33,315 nucleotides of DNA from a virus, in the IMG/VR virus record IMGVR_UViG_3300025701_000033, positions 1-33,315 of that record. One strand, written 5' to 3'. Position numbers and translations under genes: made by a program. This document shows positions 21,762 to 33,315 of the stretch, in pieces. Under the pieces are notes generated by a model, which saw only the letters and a program-made list of their open reading frames with translations, searched no databases and was not told the DNA's origin. Numbering within the stretch: position 1 is the first letter of the stretch; every line of letters begins with the position of its first letter.

Positions 21762-24700
21762 ATGACATTACTAGAATACATAACTTCTTTGCAAGACACT
21801 GGGTTATCTCAAGAAGAAATATTCGCTAAAGCTCAAGAGTTTAAAGGTAGAGCAAAAACCGAAGAAGTAAAGGTGACTGAAGCACCTGTTGAAGAAGTAA
21901 AGACAGAAGTTGTTGTGGAAAAGGATGCGACTGCAGCAACAACCCCGGTAGCATCCGAGAGTTTAAGTTCTGGAAGTGGAGAATCAGTATCTCAAGAACC
22001 TAGATTTTTTGGTCCTGGCATGACTGATAAAGAAATGGATCAAGCTAGAAAATCACAAAAACAATACAAAGACCAAACAGCTAAGTTAAACAGTGTAGTT
22101 AAGGAAAATGAAACTTACTCTGCTGATAACTACGATTATAAATGGGAGGTAAGTGACGATAATAAAATAAAGTACTATACTAAAAAGCAAGAAACCGATA
22201 ATTGGTTAGATCTAAGTGAAAATAATGGATCTCAAGATGCTCAAATAAACTTAGCAGCAGTTCAATTAGAGTTGGGTCATAGAGACGATATAACTAAAGA
22301 AGAGCTTCAAGAAGCTAGAAATCAACCTATAGATTTAGGTGTGAATCAAGAGGAAGGCGTTTTGTGGGAAACTCAAACCTACGCACCGCCAATGTCAGAA
22401 TATGTTGGTAACGTTATAGAAGAAGATATAGAGCAAAGCCCTGAGCTCACGTATTACACTGCTCAAAAAAATAAGCTAAAAGAAATAGAACAACAAAGAG
22501 TTGACCTAGAATCTAAGTCAATTAGATTTGCTAATAATAACTTTGAAGATCAAGCATCTAGAGATCAATTTATAGCTAAAGAGCTAGCTAATTTTGATGA
22601 AAATAACGCTAAGGAAATAGAGTTAATTAAAGAGTTAGATGGTTTAACAGATACTCAGTCAAAGGCTCTTGAAGAGCTTAGAAAAGACACTGGAAACAAT
22701 GCTAGTACAGGTGGTGGCTTTGGAGATGTTACAAACTATATAAACTCTGCTTTAAAAGGTTTCGGTGTAGACTTTAGTGAACCTAGTGAAACTATAGAAA
22801 TAAACGATGAGATAGAGTTAAACATAGTAAATTCTTTAGATAAAAGATCTTTACAAAAACTAGCTAAAGGAACTTTTACTTTACAAGAAAAAGAAGATTT
22901 AATAAATAAATTTAAAATACCTGTAATAAAAAGAAAGTCTAAATTTTTAAGTTCTCAATTTGAAAATGTTAAACTAAAATACGATGAGGATATTATTCAA
23001 TTAGACTCTGATTTAGACACTATAAATTCTCAAATGACAGCTCTAAAGGATTCTGGATTAAACACTCCTGAGCAGGTGCAAAACTATAATTCCTTAGTTT
23101 CAACTTACACAGAAACTTCTAAAATAAGAAACGAAAAGCTTGGTTTTTATAAGAAAGAATTGTCTAATATAGCCGCGACTAAAAGCAGTATTGAAGGGGA
23201 TTTAAACATGAGTTTTTCTAGAGAAACTTTGGGAAACAATTTTAAATTATCTGATGAGGTTGAAGCTTACAGAGAAAGCTTTTCAGGAGATGGTTTCTGG
23301 AATGGCGCAATGGACATTGTAGGTGGGGAGATTGTTGGTGGACTATATGGTTTAGCTAAAAAAGCTTCTATTGGTTTTCCTGCAGAAGTAATGGCTGGAT
23401 TTGGAGATCTTTTTACAGACGAAGAAGAATATTCGGTTTATGACGCTTGGAGAGATACGGTGTACAATTTCACAGACTATAGTTTAGTACCCAAGTCTGA
23501 AGACGAAAAATTTAAAATCACAACTGAAGAAGGTGGTTTCAATACTGATGCTGGCGCTAGGAATTATCTAAAACTTGGCGGTCAAATGCTTCCTTTTACT
23601 TTACACTTAATGAATGAAGTCAGAAAAGGTAATGTTACATCCTTTCAAAAGGGAATAGGTAAAACAATTACTGGACTTGGGTCTAAGTCTAAAGTGTTAT
23701 CACCTGTTTCTAGTAAATTAAAGGATAGTATATTGATGGCAGACGCCACTTTTAGAGCAACTTTAATGGACAACGTTAAAGAAGCTGAAGCTAAGGGTTT
23801 ATTTGGTGGGCGTGGTTTAGCATATGCTAGCGCTGTTTCTTTGACGGAAGGTTTAGTGCAGACTATAATGCCAGACGCTCAGTTTTTAAGAGGAGTTGGC
23901 GGTAAAAAAATAAAAGACATATTCTCAGGTAAATTAAAAAACATAGCAACTAAAGAAGGTTTTAAAGCAGCTGGAAAAGAGTTTACAGTTAATATATTAA
24001 AAGAACTTGGTGAAGAAGAAATAAACGCGGCTATGAATATAGTTACTGACGCTTCTTTTGGTTTAGCTTTACCTAAGTCTTCAGAATTTTTAAATTCACA
24101 GATAGAGCTAGTGGCAGGAACACTAATGCTTAGTGGAGGCATGGGGTCTATTGGAGCGGTTAAAACATTCAATAATCAAAAAACTTTAATATACAATCAG
24201 ATACATAAGAACATAAATTCTACTATGTTGTATCTTGATACAATGAAAAAATCAAGCAGCAATCCTGAAACAATAGAGCAAATAATAAAAGCGCAACAGC
24301 TTGCTTTTAACGTTTCTAAAGCCATGAGTAAAGCTCCAGGTGACGTAACAGGGGTAGAGGTTGATTTATTGATGGAGAAAACAGAGCTATTAAAAGAAAA
24401 AGAAAATGTAGATTCATCTTTTCACGGACCTATAAATGAAAAAATAGCAAAAGTAGATGAGCAAATAATTGAAATTAATAAAACTAAAATAGCAGAATCT
24501 AAGTCAAGAGCAGGTGCTAAAAATATATCTGATCAAATAGAAAGTACACTAGAAACTTTTAGTGACCAAGCTAAAATAGATGAAAGAGTAAAAGAAATAA
24601 AAGAACAAGGAGGTAGCGTTTTAGAATCTACCGGTTATGGTCAAGCTTTGGTTTTAGATGGTAAGAAAATAATATTAATAAACGACCAAGCGCAAGCAGA

Positions 24701-27700
24701 AGACTTTAAATACACTACGGATCAACATGAGCTTTTGCATCATTTTTTCCTTCAAACGTTTCAAACAAATCCAGACGCTGCGATTAAGTTTGGCCAAGCG
24801 TTAGTTAACGAAATAGTTAACAACCCTGATATAACAGGTGGGTTTAATTTCATGACTAGATTTAATGAGTACTTAGTCGATGAAAATTACTCTGCAGAAA
24901 ACACATGGGAAGAAGTTATTCCTTTACTAAGTGAGTCTCTTACTGATGGAGACATTGTATACAACAAGAAGCAAGATGGTTTTTGGAAGTCTATAGGTAA
25001 ACAGATTTCTAGCTTGTTTAAAGACCCAAAAAACCAACAAAAACTAGGTATAACATTTGACACCGGTTTAGATGCTTTTAACTTTATTAAAGATTTCAAC
25101 GACACTATACAGTCAGGTGGTAAACTTACTGAAGATCAAGTTAGAACAGCTAAAGAGGGAGCTAAGGGCGAGTTAGTTACTGGAGATGTGAAAATTGACG
25201 GTAGAAAAAAAGGTGGTAAAGCCGTAAAAACTCTTAACGAAGCAATGGTTGATAACACTGCAGAGGTTGAAAACATAGTAGCTAAAGAAAGTAAAAAAGA
25301 CACAGGCGTACAAGCATCTACCAAGGTGCAAGAAATATACGATACTCAAGGTGAAGCTGGAGCTTTTGATATTATAGATCAATTTAAGCCTATAGTAAAT
25401 AGAATAGTAGAGAAAAGAAGAGACGCACCTAATTTTGATCGTCAGTTGTTAACTGATGAAATTGAAACAGGTAAGCGTGGTATATTCGATTTAATTAGAG
25501 AGTACAAACCTGAATCAGGTGTGCCATTAGCCGCTTATATAAATAAGTTTTTACCAGCTAGAGCTATTGAAGCCTCTCAAAGAGTTTTAGGTGAAACATT
25601 TACTGAAGACGTTACAGAAGCTAAAGGCATTATGGCAGAAGAAGTAACAACTGAAACTGCTACAAAACCTGTTACTAGAAAAATAAAGCCAAGCTCGTTT
25701 ATTTCTAACGAAGCAGTAACTAAAATTAAAGAGCAAGTACAAGAGAAGATTAAAGGCATCGATCCTAAAAATCTAACGTTTAAAAAACTTGGTGACTTAG
25801 CTCCTGAAATTATTGCAGCTGAAATTGGTATACCAGTTAAAAAGCTTACAGTAGCTACAGCCAACCTATCAAAAGGTGATGCTACAGCTATTCAGCAATT
25901 TATCAATAAGAACGCAGATAAATTATTAAAGATATTACCAGAAGGGGCAGTTATAGAAGCTGCAACAGACAAGCTCTTAGGTACGTCTACTGGCGTGCCA
26001 AAAGGTTTGCTTAATGCTTTTTATACTAAACAATCTAGATTAGGTAAAGGCGCTGGACTTGCTCCGTTTAAATTAAACAAAGGAATTAGTAAAGCTGATT
26101 TCTTAGAAGCGTTTGGTATTGTTGAAGGTAAAAAAGCTGAAGGATTTGACGCTAGATCACCACAAGCTCAAGCGTTAAAAGGTATAGCTAGCTTGTACGG
26201 TAAATTAGTTACAAATGAAATTGTAAGATCTGACACAGGTTTAAGTTTAGAAGCTAAGCAAGATGTTGCAGCCGGCAAGAATAAAGCTATGGCTAGTAAA
26301 AGGCCTGACATTAAAAGTAGGTTCAATACGGCATCAACCACAAAAACAGGTGGGGTTAGTAAAGCTAACAACGTAGACCCTATATCTAGGGGATCTGTAG
26401 AATACATGGGAGGTAAAGGTGGTCTTAAAACAGAAACTAGATGGACACCGTCTAAAGAAGACATAGCGTATATTCCAACATTTATGAATAAAGCTGCCGG
26501 TTTATTCGGCAAAGACTTCTTTACTACTGGAAACTTTGCTTTTGGTGGAAGATCTTTAATAGGTACAAGAGGCGATTTAACTAATGCTTTAGAAGGAGCG
26601 GTTTATAATAAAGACGCTCCGCAAATGCCTAAAAGAAAGCCTTATAAAAAAACCAAAAAGTACGACAAGAATTTCCACAAAAAATTAAACACTAAGGAGT
26701 TTTTAGATAATGAAAAAGCTAAAATGCCTTATCTTAAATTTATATTTGAGCAAATACAAGCTGATTTAAAAACTAACCCAAACCACTTAAAGTATTGGGA
26801 AGCTGTTTTAAACGACGCTCAAAACAGTCAAGGTCACTTTATGAGGTTTTTAGCACCTATAGCTTTTTACCCAGTAGATAAAAATGGAAACCCAGTTTTT
26901 GACCAAGATATAGTTGAAGAGCATACTATGCCTCAAAGTAACGTTGCAGCATTTTTGTTACAATCAGCTCTTGATGGTGACATAGAACAAGATTTTGGAT
27001 TTATAGAAGATAACTATTTTCAAGGAGCTTTACTATTAGCTGACGACAAAAAGACCAGAGGTAAAGATTATAATTATATATCCAACATGGGAGAGACTTT
27101 TTTAGAGTCAGACAACCCATCTTCTTGGATGAGGTATAATAATGAAAACGTAAACGCTAATCAAGGTGGTATTGACTTTAATGCTTATAAATTATTAAAC
27201 GGTCAGACTATAGCTGAAAGTTTAGACGCTGGTTTACCACCTAAAGATAGAACTCCTGACGCTTTAGAAAACCAAAGAAATGAAATATTAAAGCAATTAA
27301 AAGATCCTAGCTATAAAGCTAAAGAAGCTATAGAAGCTTTTAAAGAACTAGCACCAGGTAAAGCAATGGCTTCAAAACGTGATAGCAATTTAATACCTGA
27401 TGCTATAAAATACGAAGGACCTATAACCGTGCAGACAGCTATAAATGCTTTAGAAAAAACTGATAAAGCTTTAGAACTTGCTAGAAAACTAGATCAACCT
27501 GTCAAGAAGATTAGAGTATTTGATTTCGATGATACATTGGCTAGAACTAAAAGCAACGTGTTATACACAATGCCTGACGGAACTACTGGAGCTATTGACG
27601 CTGCCACATTCGCTAAAGAAGCAGGTAACATGGAAGCTGAAGGAGCTCAATGGGATTTTTCTGAGTTTAGTAAAGTAATGCAAGGAAGTAAAGGACCACT

Positions 27701-30185
27701 ATTAGATGTAGCTAAAATCATAGCAGACAAACGTGGAACTAAAGATGTATTTGTTTTAACGGCAAGACCTGCAGATGCAGCTGGACCAATCAAAGAATTC
27801 TTAGCTAGTATGGGATTAGATATTCCACTTGCTAATATTACTGGATTAGGTGATGGAACTCCACAGGCTAAAGCTGGGTGGATTATGGGTAAAGCAGCTG
27901 AAGGTTATAATGATTTTTACTTCGCTGACGATCACACAGGAAACGTTAAAGCGGTTAAGGATGTATTAAGTCAGATCGATGTTAAGTCTAAAGTTCAATT
28001 AGCAAAAGCTAGTAAGAGACAAACCTTTGATACTGTCGTGAATGATATGATCGAGGATTCGTCTGGTATTGAAACTTATAAAAAGTATTCTGCTGCAAGA
28101 GCTAAAACAGTTGGCGCTAGTAAAGGTAAATATAATTTTCTTATTCCACCATCTGCTGAAGACTTTACAGGTTTACTATATAAAATGATAGGTAAAGGTA
28201 AGAAAGGAGATGCCCAAATGGCTTTCTTAAAAACAAACTTACTTGACACTTACAACAGAGCTGAGTCTGCAGTTACGCAAGCTAAGGTATCTGCTGCAAA
28301 TGATTTTGTAGCTTTAAAAACAGAACTAAAAACACTACCTAAGACTTTAAGTAAAGAAACTGGTATTGGTAAATTCACTTACTCTCATGCAGTACGTGTT
28401 GCCGCTTGGACTAATCAAGGTATGGATATACCAGGTTTATCTAAAAGAGATGTCAAGGAGTTAGTTGACTTTGTAAACAAAGACGCTAAGCTTAGGGTAT
28501 TTACTGACGAGCTTATTAAAATACAAAAAGGCAAAGAATATCCAAAACCTGGTAAAGACTGGTTAGGTGGAAATATCACCACAGATATTATTGGTGGTAT
28601 TAATAAAGTTAATAGAGCTGAATATCAGCAAGAGTGGAGAGAGAACATCGACATTATATTCTCTGAGGATAATATGAACAAGATGGAAGCTGCATACGGA
28701 TCTAGATGGCGTGAAGCTATGGAAGATTCTATTCGTAGAATGAAATCTGGTAGCAATAGACCGATCGGAGGTAACAGAGTAACAGAAGGATTACTCAACT
28801 GGTTAAACAACTCTGTCGGTGCTGTAATGTTCTTAAATACAAGGTCTGCATTATTGCAGACTATATCTGCGGTAAACTTTATAAACTTGAGTGATAATAA
28901 TATAGTGAAAGCTGGAGTGGCGTTTGCTAATCAGAAACAGTTTTGGGGTGACTTCATGACACTTATGAATTCTGACTACCTAGTAGAGCGTAGAAATGGT
29001 CTTAAGATTAACGTAAGTGAGTCTGAGATTGCTGATGCTGTAAGAGAATCTAAGAACAAACCTAAAGCAGCTATTGCTTTCTTACTTAGCAAAGGTTTTG
29101 TGATGACTAGATTTGCGGATAGTTTTGCTATCGCATCTGGTGGTTCTACTTTTTATAGAAATAGAGTTAATAAGTATGTCAAAGAAGGTGTAGAGCAGAG
29201 CGTTGCTGAAAAGCAAGCGTTTGCAGATTTTAAAGCTATAGCAGAAGAAAGCCAACAGTCTAGTTCACCTAGTAAGATTAGCCAACAACAAGCGTCAGCC
29301 GCTGGTCGTGTAATACTAGCTTGGGCAAATACACCGATGCAGTATGCTCGTATACAGAAACGTGCTGCACAGGATATTATAAACGGTCGTGGTGACTGGA
29401 AAACTAACGTATCTAAAATAGTTTACTACGGTGCTATTCAGAATTTAATATTTAACTCGCTGCAAAGCGCTGCGTTTGCTTTAGGATTTGGAGATGACGA
29501 AGAAGAAACTGACGAGGCTAAGTCTAAAAATAAAGAAGAAAAAGCTTACAAGATTTTAAATGGAATGATTGATTCTCAATTAAAAGGTTTAGGTGTGTTT
29601 GGCACAGCTAGTGTAGCTCTTAAAAACACTCTAATGACTCTTTACAAAGAACATAATAAAAAAGGTTCTAAATACGAAAACGCTGTAGAAGACTTGTTAA
29701 GCTTCTCACCACCGCTTGGATCTAAGATAGGTAAAATAACCGGAGGTCTTAGAAGTGCTAGTTGGAATAAAAAGGATATGAAAGAAAAAGGTTTTAGCTT
29801 AGATAATCCAGCTTATATAGCAGGTGCTCAAGTTGTGACTGGTCTTACAAATGTTCCTTTTGATAGAGTTATGAAGAAGATTAACAACATAAGAGGTATT
29901 GTTAACGAAAGATCTGCTCTATGGCAAAAAGTAGCTTTAGGTCTTGGGTGGTCAACGTGGGATGTAGGTCTTGGATATTACGGAGGTTTTGATAAAGAAA
30001 AACCATTAACACCTAAGCAACAATTGAAGCTTGAGGTTGATACAATGAAAAAAGAAACTAGCAAAGAAGATCAAGTTAAAACATTACTAGATTTTGGGTT
30101 AACTAAGAAGCAAATTAGAGAGCTTAAAAACGAAAACAATAGAGTTAAAAAAATATTAGAACTACAAAAAAAAGATAAAAAATAA
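21762..30185 (+). CDS. Giant multidomain 'polyvalent' protein (protease, HAD and other motifs)
   Basis: A 2807-residue protein. Visible order: a short N-terminal helix and a disordered Glu/Val/Thr tract (1-110); charged coiled coil (about 200-500); Gly-rich amphipathic segment (about 516-550); another hydrophobic patch near 780-800; zincin motif HELLH (989-993); a sigma-region-2-like segment (about 1240-1275, YKPESGVPLAAYINKFLPA); an HNH-like stretch (H1721, N1751); a complete HAD phosphatase set (D1921/D1923 in FDFDDT, T2000 in LTAR, D2056/D2057); and a C-terminal part with FLIPPSAEDF-like and hydrophobic segments (about 2347-2375 and 2553-2577). Three (A)SKR linkers fall at 1511-1514, 1870-1873 and 2083-2086. 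This is the architecture of phage polyvalent proteins (Iyer and Aravind's term), thought to be injected with DNA. Its position after an ejection-type gene fits. Individual domain calls vary in strength; HAD is best. Confidence 0.8.
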   Translation: MTLLEYITSLQDTGLSQEEIFAKAQEFKGRAKTEEVKVTEAPVEEVKTEVVVEKDATAATTPVASESLSSGSGESVSQEPRFFGPGMTDKEMDQARKSQKQYKDQTAKLNSVVKENETYSADNYDYKWEVSDDNKIKYYTKKQETDNWLDLSENNGSQDAQINLAAVQLELGHRDDITKEELQEARNQPIDLGVNQEEGVLWETQTYAPPMSEYVGNVIEEDIEQSPELTYYTAQKNKLKEIEQQRVDLESKSIRFANNNFEDQASRDQFIAKELANFDENNAKEIELIKELDGLTDTQSKALEELRKDTGNNASTGGGFGDVTNYINSALKGFGVDFSEPSETIEINDEIELNIVNSLDKRSLQKLAKGTFTLQEKEDLINKFKIPVIKRKSKFLSSQFENVKLKYDEDIIQLDSDLDTINSQMTALKDSGLNTPEQVQNYNSLVSTYTETSKIRNEKLGFYKKELSNIAATKSSIEGDLNMSFSRETLGNNFKLSDEVEAYRESFSGDGFWNGAMDIVGGEIVGGLYGLAKKASIGFPAEVMAGFGDLFTDEEEYSVYDAWRDTVYNFTDYSLVPKSEDEKFKITTEEGGFNTDAGARNYLKLGGQMLPFTLHLMNEVRKGNVTSFQKGIGKTITGLGSKSKVLSPVSSKLKDSILMADATFRATLMDNVKEAEAKGLFGGRGLAYASAVSLTEGLVQTIMPDAQFLRGVGGKKIKDIFSGKLKNIATKEGFKAAGKEFTVNILKELGEEEINAAMNIVTDASFGLALPKSSEFLNSQIELVAGTLMLSGGMGSIGAVKTFNNQKTLIYNQIHKNINSTMLYLDTMKKSSSNPETIEQIIKAQQLAFNVSKAMSKAPGDVTGVEVDLLMEKTELLKEKENVDSSFHGPINEKIAKVDEQIIEINKTKIAESKSRAGAKNISDQIESTLETFSDQAKIDERVKEIKEQGGSVLESTGYGQALVLDGKKIILINDQAQAEDFKYTTDQHELLHHFFLQTFQTNPDAAIKFGQALVNEIVNNPDITGGFNFMTRFNEYLVDENYSAENTWEEVIPLLSESLTDGDIVYNKKQDGFWKSIGKQISSLFKDPKNQQKLGITFDTGLDAFNFIKDFNDTIQSGGKLTEDQVRTAKEGAKGELVTGDVKIDGRKKGGKAVKTLNEAMVDNTAEVENIVAKESKKDTGVQASTKVQEIYDTQGEAGAFDIIDQFKPIVNRIVEKRRDAPNFDRQLLTDEIETGKRGIFDLIREYKPESGVPLAAYINKFLPARAIEASQRVLGETFTEDVTEAKGIMAEEVTTETATKPVTRKIKPSSFISNEAVTKIKEQVQEKIKGIDPKNLTFKKLGDLAPEIIAAEIGIPVKKLTVATANLSKGDATAIQQFINKNADKLLKILPEGAVIEAATDKLLGTSTGVPKGLLNAFYTKQSRLGKGAGLAPFKLNKGISKADFLEAFGIVEGKKAEGFDARSPQAQALKGIASLYGKLVTNEIVRSDTGLSLEAKQDVAAGKNKAMASKRPDIKSRFNTASTTKTGGVSKANNVDPISRGSVEYMGGKGGLKTETRWTPSKEDIAYIPTFMNKAAGLFGKDFFTTGNFAFGGRSLIGTRGDLTNALEGAVYNKDAPQMPKRKPYKKTKKYDKNFHKKLNTKEFLDNEKAKMPYLKFIFEQIQADLKTNPNHLKYWEAVLNDAQNSQGHFMRFLAPIAFYPVDKNGNPVFDQDIVEEHTMPQSNVAAFLLQSALDGDIEQDFGFIEDNYFQGALLLADDKKTRGKDYNYISNMGETFLESDNPSSWMRYNNENVNANQGGIDFNAYKLLNGQTIAESLDAGLPPKDRTPDALENQRNEILKQLKDPSYKAKEAIEAFKELAPGKAMASKRDSNLIPDAIKYEGPITVQTAINALEKTDKALELARKLDQPVKKIRVFDFDDTLARTKSNVLYTMPDGTTGAIDAATFAKEAGNMEAEGAQWDFSEFSKVMQGSKGPLLDVAKIIADKRGTKDVFVLTARPADAAGPIKEFLASMGLDIPLANITGLGDGTPQAKAGWIMGKAAEGYNDFYFADDHTGNVKAVKDVLSQIDVKSKVQLAKASKRQTFDTVVNDMIEDSSGIETYKKYSAARAKTVGASKGKYNFLIPPSAEDFTGLLYKMIGKGKKGDAQMAFLKTNLLDTYNRAESAVTQAKVSAANDFVALKTELKTLPKTLSKETGIGKFTYSHAVRVAAWTNQGMDIPGLSKRDVKELVDFVNKDAKLRVFTDELIKIQKGKEYPKPGKDWLGGNITTDIIGGINKVNRAEYQQEWRENIDIIFSEDNMNKMEAAYGSRWREAMEDSIRRMKSGSNRPIGGNRVTEGLLNWLNNSVGAVMFLNTRSALLQTISAVNFINLSDNNIVKAGVAFANQKQFWGDFMTLMNSDYLVERRNGLKINVSESEIADAVRESKNKPKAAIAFLLSKGFVMTRFADSFAIASGGSTFYRNRVNKYVKEGVEQSVAEKQAFADFKAIAEESQQSSSPSKISQQQASAAGRVILAWANTPMQYARIQKRAAQDIINGRGDWKTNVSKIVYYGAIQNLIFNSLQSAAFALGFGDDEEETDEAKSKNKEEKAYKILNGMIDSQLKGLGVFGTASVALKNTLMTLYKEHNKKGSKYENAVEDLLSFSPPLGSKIGKITGGLRSASWNKKDMKEKGFSLDNPAYIAGAQVVTGLTNVPFDRVMKKINNIRGIVNERSALWQKVALGLGWSTWDVGLGYYGGFDKEKPLTPKQQLKLEVDTMKKETSKEDQVKTLLDFGLTKKQIRELKNENNRVKKILELQKKDKK

Positions 30186-30334
30186 TGGCATACAAACTCC
30201 CGCATCAAAGCCCTTTTCAATTCAAGGGAGCAAATTCATCTAATTCAAAATGTTGGCCTGGTTACGAAAAGGTAGGAACTAAACCTTCACCTAGCGGAAC
30301 CGGAGAAACTGTTAACGACTGCAAAAAAAAATAA
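30185..30334 (+). CDS. 49-residue SP-motif protein
   Basis: A 49-residue protein (MAYKLPHQSPFQFKGANSS...) whose ATG overlaps the giant gene's stop (TAATG). The N-terminal HQSPFQFKG matches the SPF-type motif of the neighbouring small proteins. It has two cysteines (CW at 23-24; C46) and a Lys-rich end; Gly/Ser/Pro-rich, probably disordered. The tight junctions on both sides (start overlap; 3-base gap to the next ORF) support it being real despite its size. Function unknown; it may be a virion-associated or signalling peptide of the SP-motif family. Confidence 0.6.
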   Translation: MAYKLPHQSPFQFKGANSSNSKCWPGYEKVGTKPSPSGTGETVNDCKKK

Positions 30335-30337
30335 ACT

Positions 30338-30493
30338 ATGAGTCTATCAGACATTAAATTATACGCTATGAACGCTGGAGCATTAGGCGTAACAACATTT
30401 ACACATATAGAAGCCCCGTTGAAAATATTTCTATTAATAGTCACTATAGGTTATACTATATCTAAATGGGTCGAACTAAAAAAAGATAAATAA
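30338..30493 (+). CDS. 51-residue membrane protein, holin candidate
   Basis: A 51-residue protein starting MSLSDIKLYAMNAGALGVTT. It has a moderately hydrophobic stretch (about 10-23) and a strong one (APLKIFLLIVTIGYTISKW, 26-44) followed by a positively charged tail (VELKKDK). Its stop overlaps the next ATG. The hydrophobic segment plus short cationic tail is typical of small phage holins or holin-like proteins. It lies about 0.9 kb upstream of the amidase, much closer than the 3TM-type holin at 685-1080. It could be the working holin, an antiholin or a small membrane component. A single or hairpin topology cannot be settled from the sequence. Confidence 0.65.
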   Translation: MSLSDIKLYAMNAGALGVTTFTHIEAPLKIFLLIVTIGYTISKWVELKKDK

Positions 30494-30747
30494 TGGGTAT
30501 ATATAATGACATAATGTTCCCGACCTCTCCTTTGAATAGAGAAAAACCACACACAGCGGGAATGAGTGCGGCTGAAAGAGCTGCTTACAATAAGAAGACA
30601 GGTGGAAACTTAAAAGCTCCACAACCAGAAGGTGGATCACGTAAGGAATCTTATTGCGCTAGGTCTGCAGGCATTAAGAAATGTAAAGATCCAGACAAAA
30701 ATGGAGACTGTCCAAACGACATCGCGAGAAGAAACTGGAAGTGTTAA
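30493..30747 (+). CDS. Small Cys-rich DUF6321-like protein with SP motif
   Basis: An 84-residue protein. The N-terminus MGIYNDIMFPTSPLNREKP contains the SPLN version of the cluster motif. The C-terminal half is the conserved unit: AAYNKKTGGNLKAPQPEGG, then SRKESYCARSAGIKK, and closely spaced cysteines (C55, C63, C72, C84). The 'YN..TGGNLK.P' plus 'RK(E)S.CARS.G' pattern matches the phage domain I know as DUF6321 (from memory, not checked). Four cysteines could bind a metal, but spacing is irregular. The ATG overlaps the stop of the membrane-protein gene (TAATG). Function unknown; family assignment moderately secure. Confidence 0.7.
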   Translation: MGIYNDIMFPTSPLNREKPHTAGMSAAERAAYNKKTGGNLKAPQPEGGSRKESYCARSAGIKKCKDPDKNGDCPNDIARRNWKC

Positions 30748-30776
30748 AAATAAATCAAAAAAATAAAAAATAAACT

Positions 30777-30795
30777 AAATAAAAATTATGAGTTC
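30777..30795 (+). repeat. Duplicated leader plus start (SP-family copy A)
   Basis: AAATAAAAATTATGAGTTC is identical to 32532-32550 and includes the start codon of each of two SP-motif genes. Both also encode near-identical N-termini, which suggests duplication of the leader with the beginning of the gene. Confidence 0.65.
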
Positions 30796-31333
30796 ACCAT
30801 TTCAACAATCATTCAGCGCTAAATCGCCGATTAAGCAAAACCTAGATTTTGGTAAAGTAAAAAAATCATCTGTAATGGATGAGAAATCAGAAGCTAATAA
30901 GTATTTTGATTCAATTACTAAATTGCCGGGTATGAAAGAAAATTACGACGCACACGTAGAAAGAAAAACAAAAGGATATTTTGACGATGAGGATGGGCAG
31001 TTTATTTCTCCACAACCAGATAAAATTTTATCACCACAAAGACATGCTGTTAGTGTAGAGATCGGAAAAGGTGGTAAGTCTGGAGTTGCAGGTTTAAAGG
31101 CCATTCAAAGCGATGAATACAAGAATGATTATAAAGGTTTTGTAAAATCTCCTTTAGATCAAAAAAAAGAAGTTAAAAAAGAATTATCACAGAAAACTAA
31201 AGATAGCTTGCAAAATAAAGCTAGAAAGATAGGTAAAGGTTTTTATAGTAAAAAACACAAAGTATACGTAGATGGCGAGGATGGCGTTTTAGGTCAAACA
31301 CCATTAAAACCTGATAACTACGAAAAGCTCTAA
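30788..31333 (+). CDS. SP-motif protein A (lysine-rich, 181 residues)
   Basis: A 181-residue, basic, hydrophilic protein. The N-terminus MSSPFQQSFSAKSPIKQN nearly matches that of the protein at 32543-32896 (MSSPFQQQFSNKSPFKP). A second motif copy, FVKSPLDQKK, occurs at about residues 118-127. It also has Lys/Gly-rich stretches (GKGGKSGVAG) and an acidic turn in the middle (DDEDGQF), with no membrane segment. It is likely an extended, partly disordered virion-associated protein. The N-terminal match implies a common tag (targeting or binding) followed by unrelated bodies. A 40-base A/T leader precedes the ATG with no Shine-Dalgarno sequence. Function unknown. Confidence 0.72.
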   Translation: MSSPFQQSFSAKSPIKQNLDFGKVKKSSVMDEKSEANKYFDSITKLPGMKENYDAHVERKTKGYFDDEDGQFISPQPDKILSPQRHAVSVEIGKGGKSGVAGLKAIQSDEYKNDYKGFVKSPLDQKKEVKKELSQKTKDSLQNKARKIGKGFYSKKHKVYVDGEDGVLGQTPLKPDNYEKL

Positions 31334-31336
31334 CAA

Positions 31337-31762
31337 TTGAGAGATATTGACAAGATCATAGTTCATTGTACAGCTACGCCTGAAGGTAGACATACCACCG
31401 TAGAAGACGTTAGACGATGGCATTTAGATCGAGGTTGGTCTGATATCGGATATCATTTTTTAATCTATCTAGATGGCTCTCTGCACGAAGGAAGACCTGT
31501 TGAAAAGCAAGGAGCTCATTGTAAAGGTCACAATAAAGGATCTATTGGAATAGCTTATGTTGGTGGAATTGATAAGGTTAATTTTAAACCTAAAGATACT
31601 AGAACTGAAGAGCAGAAAGAAGCTTTAGTGTATATACTAGAGTATTTGAAGATACAACATGCTCACGCTACGATACATGGTCATAATGATTTTGCTAATA
31701 AAGCTTGTCCTAGTTTTAATGCAACAGAAGAGTACGATAATATAACTAACATGTGGAAATAA
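31337..31762 (+). CDS. N-acetylmuramoyl-L-alanine amidase endolysin (T7 lysozyme type)
   Basis: A 141-residue Zn-amidase that cuts between muramic acid and L-alanine in peptidoglycan to lyse the host. Motifs: IIVHCTATPEGR (H10), YHFLIY with Y39 and H40, GSIGIAYVGG (69-77), and HGHNDFANKACPSFN (H116, K122, C124). The spacing H116-K122-C124 equals that of T7 lysozyme (H122, K128, C130), and H10 and Y39 match H17 and Y46. The whole protein is one domain of normal T7-type length. The start is TTG at 31337, three bases after the previous stop; residues from MRDIDKIIVH are needed for the first strand. The stop overlaps the next ATG. Function is secure. Confidence 0.95.
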   Translation: MRDIDKIIVHCTATPEGRHTTVEDVRRWHLDRGWSDIGYHFLIYLDGSLHEGRPVEKQGAHCKGHNKGSIGIAYVGGIDKVNFKPKDTRTEEQKEALVYILEYLKIQHAHATIHGHNDFANKACPSFNATEEYDNITNMWK

Positions 31763-31842
31763 TGAGTAAAGTAATAAAGTTTTTAAAGAGTGAATGGAAC
31801 TCTTTAATGTATAAATTAATGTTTAAAAAAGAAAAAAAATGA
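31762..31842 (+). CDS. 26-residue basic micro-ORF coupled to the amidase
   Basis: ATG at 31762 shares a base with the amidase stop (TAATG), and its TGA overlaps the next gene's ATG (ATGA, 31839-31842). It encodes 26 residues (MSKVIKFLKSEWNSLMYKLM plus a basic tail), an amphipathic, strongly basic helix. Overlap at both ends argues it is a real, coupled micro-gene rather than spacer. It may act in lysis (membrane-disrupting peptide, spanin or accessory) or only couple translation. No family recognised. Confidence 0.55.
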   Translation: MSKVIKFLKSEWNSLMYKLMFKKEKK

Positions 31843-32096
31843 AACCATTTACATCAAAACACTGCGCGCAGCACTTAACTAAAGAATCACCATTAAATCA
31901 AGGATTAATTTTAGCAAATCAAGATGCTAATGACCCAAATGTTAAAAAAGCTGTTGTTAGAGGAGTTAGAAAAGCTGAAGAAGCTGGATTAATTAAAAAG
32001 GTCCCAAAAAAACCAACTAACAGTAGATTAGCTCCAGCTGGGTATTCTAAAAGAACTAAGTTTGACAACGCTGCTAAAGAGGCTTTAAAGAAATAA
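31839..32096 (+). CDS. SP-motif protein B (85 residues, basic)
   Basis: An 85-residue basic protein (many Lys/Ala). The N-terminus MKPFTSKHCAQHLTKESPLNQ carries the cluster motif ESPLNQ. It continues with a helical, Lys/Ala-rich body (VKKAVVRGVRKAEEAGLIKK) and a Pro-rich turn (KKPTNSRLAPAGYSKR). Translation is coupled to the micro-ORF through ATGA. It may be a small nucleic-acid- or capsid-binding peptide given its charge, but nothing specific is visible. Overlapping antisense reading frames are shadows. Function unknown. Confidence 0.65.
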   Translation: MKPFTSKHCAQHLTKESPLNQGLILANQDANDPNVKKAVVRGVRKAEEAGLIKKVPKKPTNSRLAPAGYSKRTKFDNAAKEALKK

Positions 32097-32099
32097 ATT

Positions 32100-32537
32100 A
32101 TGAATAATTTTTCAAGCCCATTCATGTTTAAAAGCCCTTTAAACGATTTAAGAAAAGCAAATTCTAGCAGAAAAACTAAAAAGAGAGAGCCTATGAAAGA
32201 CTGTGAAGGTTTTGAATGCTCTAAAAGTGAAGCTAGTTTAAACAGGGAAAATAAAACAAAAACTAGAACCAAGACACACATAGACAACGCACGTGCGTAC
32301 GCTGCTAAAGATAGTGCTCCTTTAAATCAAATTACAGGTGGTGAAAACACCGGTGAAGTTAAAAAAGATAAAAAAGGAAAATATGTATTACGTAGTGAAA
32401 GTAGTATTGCTGGTGCTAAAGGTGATACTATAAGAATACCTAAAAACAAGCATATTCAAGACGGTTATTTAATGGGAGGAGATTACGAAACTAAAAAGCT
32501 AGGTGATAAAAGCTTTGAGATAACTAAGCAAAAATAA
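32100..32537 (+). CDS. SP-motif protein C (145 residues)
   Basis: A 145-residue hydrophilic protein. The N-terminus MNNFSSPFMFKSPLNDLRKA combines both halves of the cluster motif (SPF..., KSPLN). A probable second weak copy, SAPLNQITGG, lies at about 73-82. It has a Cys pair (CEGFECSKSE) and Lys/Glu-rich polar segments. It ends with a beta-like tail (GDYETKKLGDKSFEITKQK). No membrane segment. The gap to the previous gene is 3 bases. It is another member of the motif family with an otherwise unrelated body; function unknown. Confidence 0.65.
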   Translation: MNNFSSPFMFKSPLNDLRKANSSRKTKKREPMKDCEGFECSKSEASLNRENKTKTRTKTHIDNARAYAAKDSAPLNQITGGENTGEVKKDKKGKYVLRSESSIAGAKGDTIRIPKNKHIQDGYLMGGDYETKKLGDKSFEITKQK

Positions 32538-32550
32538 AAATTATGAGTTC
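32532..32550 (+). repeat. Duplicated leader plus start (SP-family copy B)
   Basis: AAATAAAAATTATGAGTTC is identical to 30777-30795, again spanning the leader and start of an SP-motif gene with the same N-terminus. Confidence 0.65.
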
Positions 32551-32896
32551 GCCATTCCAACAACAGTTTTCTAATAAATCTCCATTTAAGCCTTTACATG
32601 AGGCTCAGAGCGTTATAGACCCTAAGTATTCGGGGTCTAAGCAAGAATTTGAACAAAAACAAGCTCAAAGACAAAAAGATTTTATTTCTAGTTTACCTGA
32701 GTGGGATGGCCCTACTCAAACAGGTGCTATTAATGAATTCAATGACCACGTGTTAGTAGGAGGAGCAGCTAAAGCTGGTTTTAATTTATCTAAAAAAATT
32801 CCATCTCTTTTAAGTAAACAAGTTAAAAAAGCAAAGAATATAGCGGTAAATTTTGCAGATAATATAGCTACAACTTTACTAACTAATAACAATTAA
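32543..32896 (+). CDS. SP-motif protein D (117 residues)
   Basis: A 117-residue protein. The N-terminus MSSPFQQQFSNKSPFKP is near-identical to protein A's. It continues with a Gln/Lys/Glu-rich stretch (KQEFEQKQAQRQKD), then ISSLPEWDGPTQTGAINEFN. A hydrophobic/basic helical C-terminal part (HVLVGGAAKAGFNLSKK; KAKNIAVNFADNIATTLL) could form a membrane-active helix. The N-terminus and leader look duplicated from the same source as protein A, while the body differs. It is the last gene of the rightward block, before the terminator. Function unknown. Confidence 0.7.
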   Translation: MSSPFQQQFSNKSPFKPLHEAQSVIDPKYSGSKQEFEQKQAQRQKDFISSLPEWDGPTQTGAINEFNDHVLVGGAAKAGFNLSKKIPSLLSKQVKKAKNIAVNFADNIATTLLTNNN

Positions 32897-32949: not shown

Positions 32950-32981
32950 AAAGGGGTCCACATTACGTGAACCCCTTTTTT
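32950..32981 (+). terminator. Rho-independent terminator ending the rightward late block
   Basis: AAAGGGGTCCAC (32950-32961), a 5-base loop ATTAC, and GTGAACCCCTTT (32967-32978) form a 12-bp stem with one C-A mismatch, followed by a T-run. It lies between the last plus-strand gene and the convergent minus-strand reductase gene; the A-run on the other side gives weaker minus-strand function. Confidence 0.9.
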
Positions 32982-32985
32982 GATT

Positions 32986-33315
32986 TTACCCATCACAAGC
33001 TAAACAATCTTCGTTCATTGCTTGTTGCGCTATGTCCCCTCGTAGCACTGACTCTGTTCTTGTATAGTACAAAGTCTTAACTCCGTTTTTCCAAGCATCA
33101 AAGTGTACTTTGTTAAGCCACTTAGGTGTTGCTTCACTAGGAAAAGCTAAATTCAAACTAACTGATTGATCTATGTACTGCTGACGTAATCCAGCTTGAT
33201 TAACTAATTCCAATTGGTTAATCTCCTTAAAAGTCTTAAATACCTCTTTTGCTGGTATGTCGTGGCCCATAGTGATATCATCAAGCTCAGCAATATCTTG
33301 AACGCTACCACCATC
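32986..33315 (-). CDS. nrdA: Ribonucleotide reductase large subunit, C-terminal part (cut by window edge)
   Basis: The frame is open to the right edge and ends in TAA, so only the C-terminal 109 residues are visible. They read through a conserved stretch of the class I large (alpha) subunit: LVNQAGLRQQYIDQSVSLNL, then WLNKVHFDAWKNGVKTLYYT and RTESVLRGD. They end with DCLACDG, where the C-x-x-C pair is the flexible-tail redox pair that reloads the active-site disulfide from thioredoxin or glutaredoxin. The enzyme makes deoxynucleotides for phage DNA. It lies on the opposite strand and belongs to another (early or middle) transcription unit. An internal ATG at 33270 is not the true start. Confidence 0.9.
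   Translation of the reverse strand, partial: DGGSVQDIAELDDITMGHDIPAKEVFKTFKEINQLELVNQAGLRQQYIDQSVSLNLAFPSEATPKWLNKVHFDAWKNGVKTLYYTRTESVLRGDIAQQAMNEDCLACDG

Follow-up and report, generated by a model that had tools for sequence, protein, structure and literature searches.

Short terminal peptides that send unrelated cargo to a protein shell are known from cellular systems, namely the encapsulation peptides of bacterial microcompartments, which form an amphipathic helix, and the cargo peptides of encapsulins. The capsid-targeting leader of phage T4 ends in a prohead-protease site, (L/I)xE. Outside the T-even phages, we know of few cases in which one short phage peptide tags many unrelated proteins. 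Passages in two reports on the injected internal (Ip) proteins of T4 describe a capsid-targeting leader as the only part that these proteins have in common (PMC3012670, PMC12373910). Here, we analyzed a 33,315-base IMG/VR virus record (IMGVR_UViG_3300025701_000033; the whole stretch is referred to as the window) in which two small genes, starting at positions 30788 and 32543, open with nearly the same 15 residues. Comparison with related phages identified these residues as a transferable N-terminal peptide module, carried by many unrelated, mostly basic proteins of one phage clade. The tag-bearing phages are uncultured marine relatives of flavobacterial podoviruses, with Flavobacteriia as the probable hosts. 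By analogy with T4, the two genes may carry a short peptide tag that loads small basic accessory proteins into the virion, a reading to which we give a probability of roughly 48%.

The T4 capsid-targeting leader appears to be the nearest precedent for this tag, as an analog rather than as a member of the same system. As with the T-even Ip1-3 proteins in the passages cited, non-homologous small proteins share only an N-terminal leader. Unlike Ip1-3, the proteins described here have an unrelated leader sequence, belong to relatives of podoviruses, use several leader types and carry the motif at internal junctions as well; no T4-like cleavage site is enriched. Position and strand of the tagged genes would fit T4-type late expression together with structural genes. 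The microcompartment and encapsulin peptides are likewise short terminal peptides on unrelated proteins, but their sequences differ and an amphipathic helix is not supported here.

The window encodes a terminase, a portal, a capsid protein and further virion proteins akin to those of flavobacterial podoviruses, followed by a 2,807-residue gene and then by a run of small genes at 30185-32896. The initial annotation had reported that an identical 19-base stretch precedes and enters genes 30788 (181 residues) and 32543 (117 residues), that the encoded N-termini are nearly identical and that the remainders are unrelated. All of this proved correct. The 19-mer AAATAAAAATTATGAGTTC has exactly two copies in the window (30777-30795 and 32532-32550), 12 of the first 15 residues are identical, with the DNA aligning as well, and past residue 16 the bodies show no homology at an E value of 1e-3. 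The parts of the two genes are as follows.

30777 to 30787, plus strand: A-rich untranslated leader of gene 30788, identical to 32532-32542, with modest conservation across relatives
30788 to 30832, plus strand: tag module copy 1, codons 1-15, MSSPFQQSFSAKSPI
30833 to 31333, plus strand: body of tagged gene 1, with two modules, the second from near an internal SPL at residue 121
32532 to 32542, plus strand: A-rich untranslated leader of gene 32543
32543 to 32587, plus strand: tag module copy 2, codons 1-15, MSSPFQQQFSNKSPF
32588 to 32896, plus strand: body of tagged gene 2, unrelated to body 1

Eleven of the 19 bases are untranslated and A-rich, and such low complexity would favor a chance similarity of A-rich starts. 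At up to three mismatches, however, dinucleotide shuffles averaged 0.09 matches to the 19-mer and none of 100 reached two; exact identity over the 11 nucleotides 5' of the start occurred in 16 of 20,000 random gene pairs. Chance is refuted by these shuffles and by scans of sequence collections, in which a scrambled control pattern retrieved nothing (see below), and we regard its probability as negligible.

A short motif, SP followed by F, L, I, M or V (SP[FLIMV]), extends beyond the two genes. Six of the nine genes at 30185-32896 carry it, mostly near the start and as SP followed by F, L or I. The nine-gene cluster holds 10 such motifs in 879 residues, compared with 5 in the 9,945 residues of 19 upstream genes (odds ratio 22.9, p = 2.4e-8), and shuffled proteins of the cluster held a mean of 0.66 and a maximum of 5 in 5,000 shuffles. 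The genes without the motif encode an apparent membrane protein of 51 residues, an Amidase_2 protein and a 26-residue open reading frame (ORF).

The same leader opens many different proteins in related phages. An exact scan of viral_contigs with the first 18 bases retrieved 85 stretches, all of which entered the residue counts given below for 18-base starts; 80 of them, used for body clustering and copy counts, contain 92 matches, 86 of which open a complete ORF of at least 30 residues. When synonymous change was allowed and F9, K12 and P14 were required, 89 stretches were found in viral_contigs. The scrambled leader pattern found 0 stretches in the same collection, and a stricter leader pattern found 0 in genome_contigs. 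The consensus is M-S-S-P-F-Q-x-x-F-x-x-K-[SNT]-P-[LIF], 15 residues that end in Ser-Pro-Leu or a close variant. In keeping with a leader specific to these viruses, a clade marker gene is present at 52 of the 62 loci with an MSSPFQ leader. After 2 of 75 proteins without the leader consensus were left out, the 73 distinct proteins fell into 15 single-linkage body clusters at an E value of 1e-3, or 23 at 1e-6. Where two leader proteins share a locus, none of the 11 pairs compared (the window pair, and 10 pairs in 8 loci) is homologous in body. More generally, among pairs with at least 9 of 17 N-terminal residues identical, the remainders were non-homologous in 169 of 342 SP pairs (49%) versus 262 of 24,300 non-SP pairs (1.1%); members are not independent in these pair counts or in the leader counts below, as related phages contribute several. 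A count of all tripeptides over residues 1-30 of 2,242 short ORFs, non-redundant and drawn from the loci compared, ranked SPF first (52 versus 9.1 shuffled) and SPL fourth (62 versus 15.7). The density of SP[FLIMV] per 1,000 was 3.4 at residues 1-10 and 3.0 at residues 11-20, then about 1.1 to 1.3.

The initial annotation had proposed a cassette-style 5' duplication with new bodies attached, to be checked in related phages by counting such cassettes and comparing their boundaries. Each matching locus proved to have one to three copies, with the boundary falling after codon 15. What stands is that many related phages carry one 5' coding cassette on unrelated bodies, sometimes in tandem. The comparison does not show a local or recent duplication; each of the two window genes is related to genes elsewhere whose leader is identical or similar. 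The leader as the duplicated unit also needs correction: the transferable part is mainly residues 1-15 of the protein, and the untranslated leader is kept only loosely. Finally, the pattern is wider than one leader: there are four more leader types, some SP motifs lie internally where domains meet, and bodies can switch from one leader to another. As judged from these genomes, the unit is a tag of the protein, employed across a phage clade, which goes beyond the first observation.

To locate the module boundary, we compared the ratio of nonsynonymous to synonymous diversity (pN/pS) along the leader. It was 0.84 at codons 7-8, 0.80 at codons 10-11, 0.377 at codons 12-15 and 1.04 at codons 16-18, in a set limited to F or M at residue 9, for which F9 in 81 of 83 starts and a codon-9 ratio of 0.056 are partly built in. 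Loci retrieved with other queries contributed 15 distinct MSSPFQ starts, taken irrespective of the serine codon, and all 15 have F9, K12 and P14; of 77 distinct starts retrieved solely through the first 18 bases, 72 have F9, 72 have K12 and 71 have P14. K12, P14 and a hydrophobic residue 15 are conserved although their codons vary (P14 is CCT in 41 and CCA in 37 of the starts from the degenerate scan, whose pattern demands F9, K12 and P14 and is informative on codon choice only). Since residues 12-15 are kept while codons change, selection acts on the protein, and the step in pN/pS at codon 15/16 together with the conserved residues defines the module as residues 1-15. These patterns show the tag peptide itself to be under selection.

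The first codons behave differently. Among the 15 starts from other queries, AGT was used at codon 2 in 14, TCA at codon 3 in 14 and CCA at codon 4 in 15. Among 87 distinct starts from all loci of the degenerate scan (85 when counted on loci up to L439; counts are from the matches listed), AGT was used at codon 2 in 75, TCA at codon 3 in 82, CCA at codon 4 in 81 and CAA at codon 6 in 87, compared with frequencies of 0.384 for TCA (within serine boxes) and 0.413 for CCA expected from codon use. Such near-fixed codons 2-6 indicate that a single DNA element was inherited and that the nucleotides near the start are under some constraint as well. One explanation is that the cassette serves chiefly as a strong site of translation initiation and as a seed for recombination, with the peptide as a by-product. 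The near-fixed codons 2, 3, 4 and 6 agree with this, as do a synonymous diversity of 0.24 at codons 2-6, the lowest of six families compared, and an A-rich untranslated stretch of 11 nucleotides that is 62% identical among tag genes versus 36% among random gene pairs. However, the low synonymous diversity may be partly general, since two of five untagged control families had a weaker form of it (0.31; 0.37 on 6 sequences) and three of five had none. A start region also accounts for codons 2-6 but not for residues 9-15, where K12, P14 and the hydrophobic residue 15 are retained despite codon variation, nor for internal motifs: SP motifs recur with mixed serine codons (44 AGY and 125 TCN outside the MSSPFQ leader), also deep inside proteins before the DUF6321 domain. 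We consider this explanation decidedly unlikely.

Bodies and leaders are also exchanged. Leader types A-E were joined to 21, 17, 7, 6 and 13 body clusters, respectively, compared with 1 for a holin control. The four further types, whose leaders end in SP[FLIV], are MA[YF]x[QM]..SP (17 body clusters), MKPFTxKH..SP (7), xSSPFMxKSP (6) and M[NKA]SP (13); the type E set contains at least one protein (L032_18790) that reads as a GroES-like family member and not as a tagged accessory protein. The DUF6321 body (PF19846), of which the window protein at 30493-30747 is a member, occurs with 72 distinct leaders, 39 of which have SP[FLIMV] upstream and several others SPAK or TPLK. Placed before DUF6321 in many of these phages, the SP motif was found in none of five cyano-, pelagi- and methylophage records examined (part of the 72 leaders, and a small share of 32 and 118 matching records). 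In L006 and L007, 38 of the 42 leading residues agree, through SPLD, after which the bodies differ, and the L006 body has a close relative at 30185-30334 of the window behind a different leader. A module that stands alone as MKSPLNSYASGGRGE in L389 forms the C-terminal part of several MSSPFQ proteins, mostly again after SPL. Within the window, the first module of the gene 30788 body matches L005:9593-9997 and the second matches L213:6854-7126; the C-terminal half of the gene 32543 body matches L179_7262, which lacks the SP leader, and L375_4729 is similar in both N-terminus and body. For 67 of 81 MSSPFQ proteins the best match does not begin with the leader, although in 31 of these the alignment begins at residue 1, which mostly reflects a longer or variant start and not a swap.

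At least two SP motifs occur in the first 60 residues of 69 of 208 tagged proteins (shuffles: mean 31, maximum 49 in 200). Statistics on all protein boundaries agree with a motif at joins but are noisy: the motif was at 41 of 28,570 positions at alignment starts and at 34 of 22,592 positions 50-54 residues inside alignments, and 52 of 5,714 left alignment boundaries had it in both proteins. Across these comparisons, the tag DNA is shown to act as a cassette that is duplicated and joined to new bodies, with bodies found under other leaders and SP[FLI] often at the join. A model without cassette exchange, in which genes duplicated in the ordinary way and their disordered bodies then diverged quickly, would suit the shortness of the bodies, the partly low-confidence models of two of the proteins and the chaining of 48 of the 73 bodies by single linkage at 1e-3. 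It is nevertheless very improbable, as pN/pS changes abruptly at codon 15/16, bodies are found under other leaders or alone, and like-start pairs without SP so rarely lose body similarity.

For the virion-loading reading, we propose that each window gene bears one copy of a 15-residue tag, one of several leader types in this marine podovirus clade. The tag would act as a linear address recognized by a binding partner of the late stage, with a component of the capsid, portal or core as the most likely one. Small basic accessory proteins would thereby be packaged in the virion and may accompany the DNA into the cell, and their fast-changing bodies would be the working parts, for instance against host defenses. 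The median isoelectric point was 10.04 for 112 tagged versus 8.18 for 639 other short ORFs (distinct sequences from 88 loci; the window was counted twice, which leaves the figures unaffected). In three contigs of 66-69 kb, 16 of 112 short ORFs on the late strand were tagged versus 2 of 143 on the other strand; most tags form two late-strand groups beside the structural genes, one following the giant gene and one preceding the terminase, and each contig has one or two isolated hits elsewhere. Flavobacterial podoviruses of Elemovirus, Pervagoviridae and Pachyviridae have related TerL, portal and capsid genes. No SP-tag cluster was found in the examined regions of such outer relatives, so the tag follows this virion lineage. 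In searches of phage records, tagged proteins of L036 and L128 had no match, and an L169 protein with a TP motif matched seven records.

The leader could instead dock the tagged proteins onto a non-virion partner, for example a complex of the host or the phage that acts during late infection in takeover, lysis timing or protein stability. Such a role would fit the internal motifs and those at domain junctions, of which a protein often has more than one, as well as a window cluster that surrounds an Amidase_2 gene. The late-strand position, the strong basicity of the tagged proteins and the absence of the tag from the examined regions of outer relatives with related structural genes argue against it, and we consider docking of this kind unlikely.

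Several results weigh against loading into the virion. The weak match of one tagged glycine-zipper body to the internal-virion-protein family phrog_6056 (8.2e-7), which speaks for loading, lies in the glycine zipper and is outscored by a match to a tape-measure family (2.1e-7); among the remaining nine tagged proteins searched, one more weak tape-measure match was the only one to a virion family. Codons 2-6 are constrained at the DNA level too, as would suit a function in translation initiation or recombination. The trait is patchily distributed, with no SP gene at 46 of 80 loci fetched by the amidase. In the 28-49 kb examined of each of six outer relatives, 5 of 227 ORFs carried the motif, none in such a cluster, and a 16-base MSSPF start was present at up to two mismatches in five of eight records. 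We found no cultured phage with the tag, and no passage with proteomic evidence in the P-SCSP1u paper. No prohead protease or T4-type scaffold core was named among the PHROGs matches of the 28 window genes, the record being a fragment. Of two leader properties considered, an amphipathic helix was rejected because the observed helical moment was reached by 197 of 300 column shuffles, which supports no defined binding shape, and a T4-like cleavage site because [LIV]xE was not enriched near the leader (20 of 80 versus 21 of 80 further in). Predicted structures had low confidence (predicted local distance difference test of 67.7 for the DUF6321 protein, with residues 1-10 and 18-21 below 50, and 56.8 for gene 30788) and were therefore too weak for a fold search.

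The N-termini of the major capsid and portal proteins were also considered as carriers of the same tag and rejected: in this clade, capsid proteins mostly start like L-x-P-Q-F-G and portals like NSxFPSQ, with sporadic SP variants. A search of solved structures gave one match for the window DUF6321 protein (E = 0.63) and none for its relative from a Prochlorococcus phage, and was of no use. No prior description of this tag was found in literature listings, whose coverage mostly leaves out subscription papers.

More tentatively, virion loading may be a general cargo-loading code, in which interchangeable [KS]SP[FL] leaders address dozens of unrelated basic proteins, as single or fused modules with their own motifs, to a common virion partner, and new injected effectors are recruited via one 45-base cassette. 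If the virion-loading reading is true, the tag would list candidate injected effectors, possibly anti-defense proteins, in genomes of an uncultured marine phage group, and the 15-residue peptide could serve as a ready-made signal for loading foreign proteins. Even without this function, the tagged genes document clearly, as a natural series, how a cassette with a defined boundary is shuffled.

The remaining features of the window cluster are as follows.

30185 to 30334, plus strand: tagged small protein, leader MAYKLPHQSPF, FKGANSSNSKCWPGY body
30338 to 30493, plus strand: untagged 51-residue protein, predicted to span the membrane; region marker
30493 to 30747, plus strand: tagged DUF6321 protein, leader MGIYNDIMFPTSPL (PF19846, 43.5 bits, above the Pfam gathering cut-off of 28.5)
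31337 to 31762, plus strand: untagged Amidase_2 protein amid the tagged cluster (Pfam, 58.4 bits, above the cut-off of 26), a likely endolysin
31839 to 32096, plus strand: tagged protein, leader type C, MKPFTSKHCAQHLTKESPL
32100 to 32537, plus strand: tagged protein, leader type D, MNNFSSPFMFKSPL
32953 to 32981, plus strand: hairpin followed by a T run (61-nucleotide stretch, z = -2.97), a possible terminator of the tagged cluster

Within 32953-33315, the hairpin and T run sit between the cluster and a minus-strand frame that resembles the end of a ribonucleotide reductase (candidate name). A simple terminator scan did not report this hairpin, promoter and terminator scans did not exceed the level of shuffled sequence, and a search of Rfam found nothing. 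The SPLYGKISSACK body of a relative scored 17.1 bits for DUF5872, below the Pfam cut-off of 27.5.

Elsewhere in the window, positions 1601-2206 match a GroES family, and the 2,807-residue gene (21762-30185), which has no Pfam match, contains a polynucleotide-kinase-like stretch at residues 1912-2085 (phrog_415, 4.3e-5). Candidate GroEL-like genes, named by sequence, lie on the way to the terminase in L169, L189, L202, G001 and G004, some of them near the second tagged group. DUF6321, a domain of unknown function, spans these contigs (window 30493-30747; L249-L328) as well as cyanophages, pelagiphages and methylophages; in Prochlorococcus phage P-SCSP1d, its gene lies between the major capsid and tail tubular genes. 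In L350 and others, the reading frame of a small protein upstream continues into the MSSPFQ leader, which points to either a fusion of genes or a start that lies further upstream. A second short motif, EGQGG[IKV]DYE, is present in several MSSPFQ bodies (L346, L382, L409, L421 and others) and is sometimes repeated within a protein.

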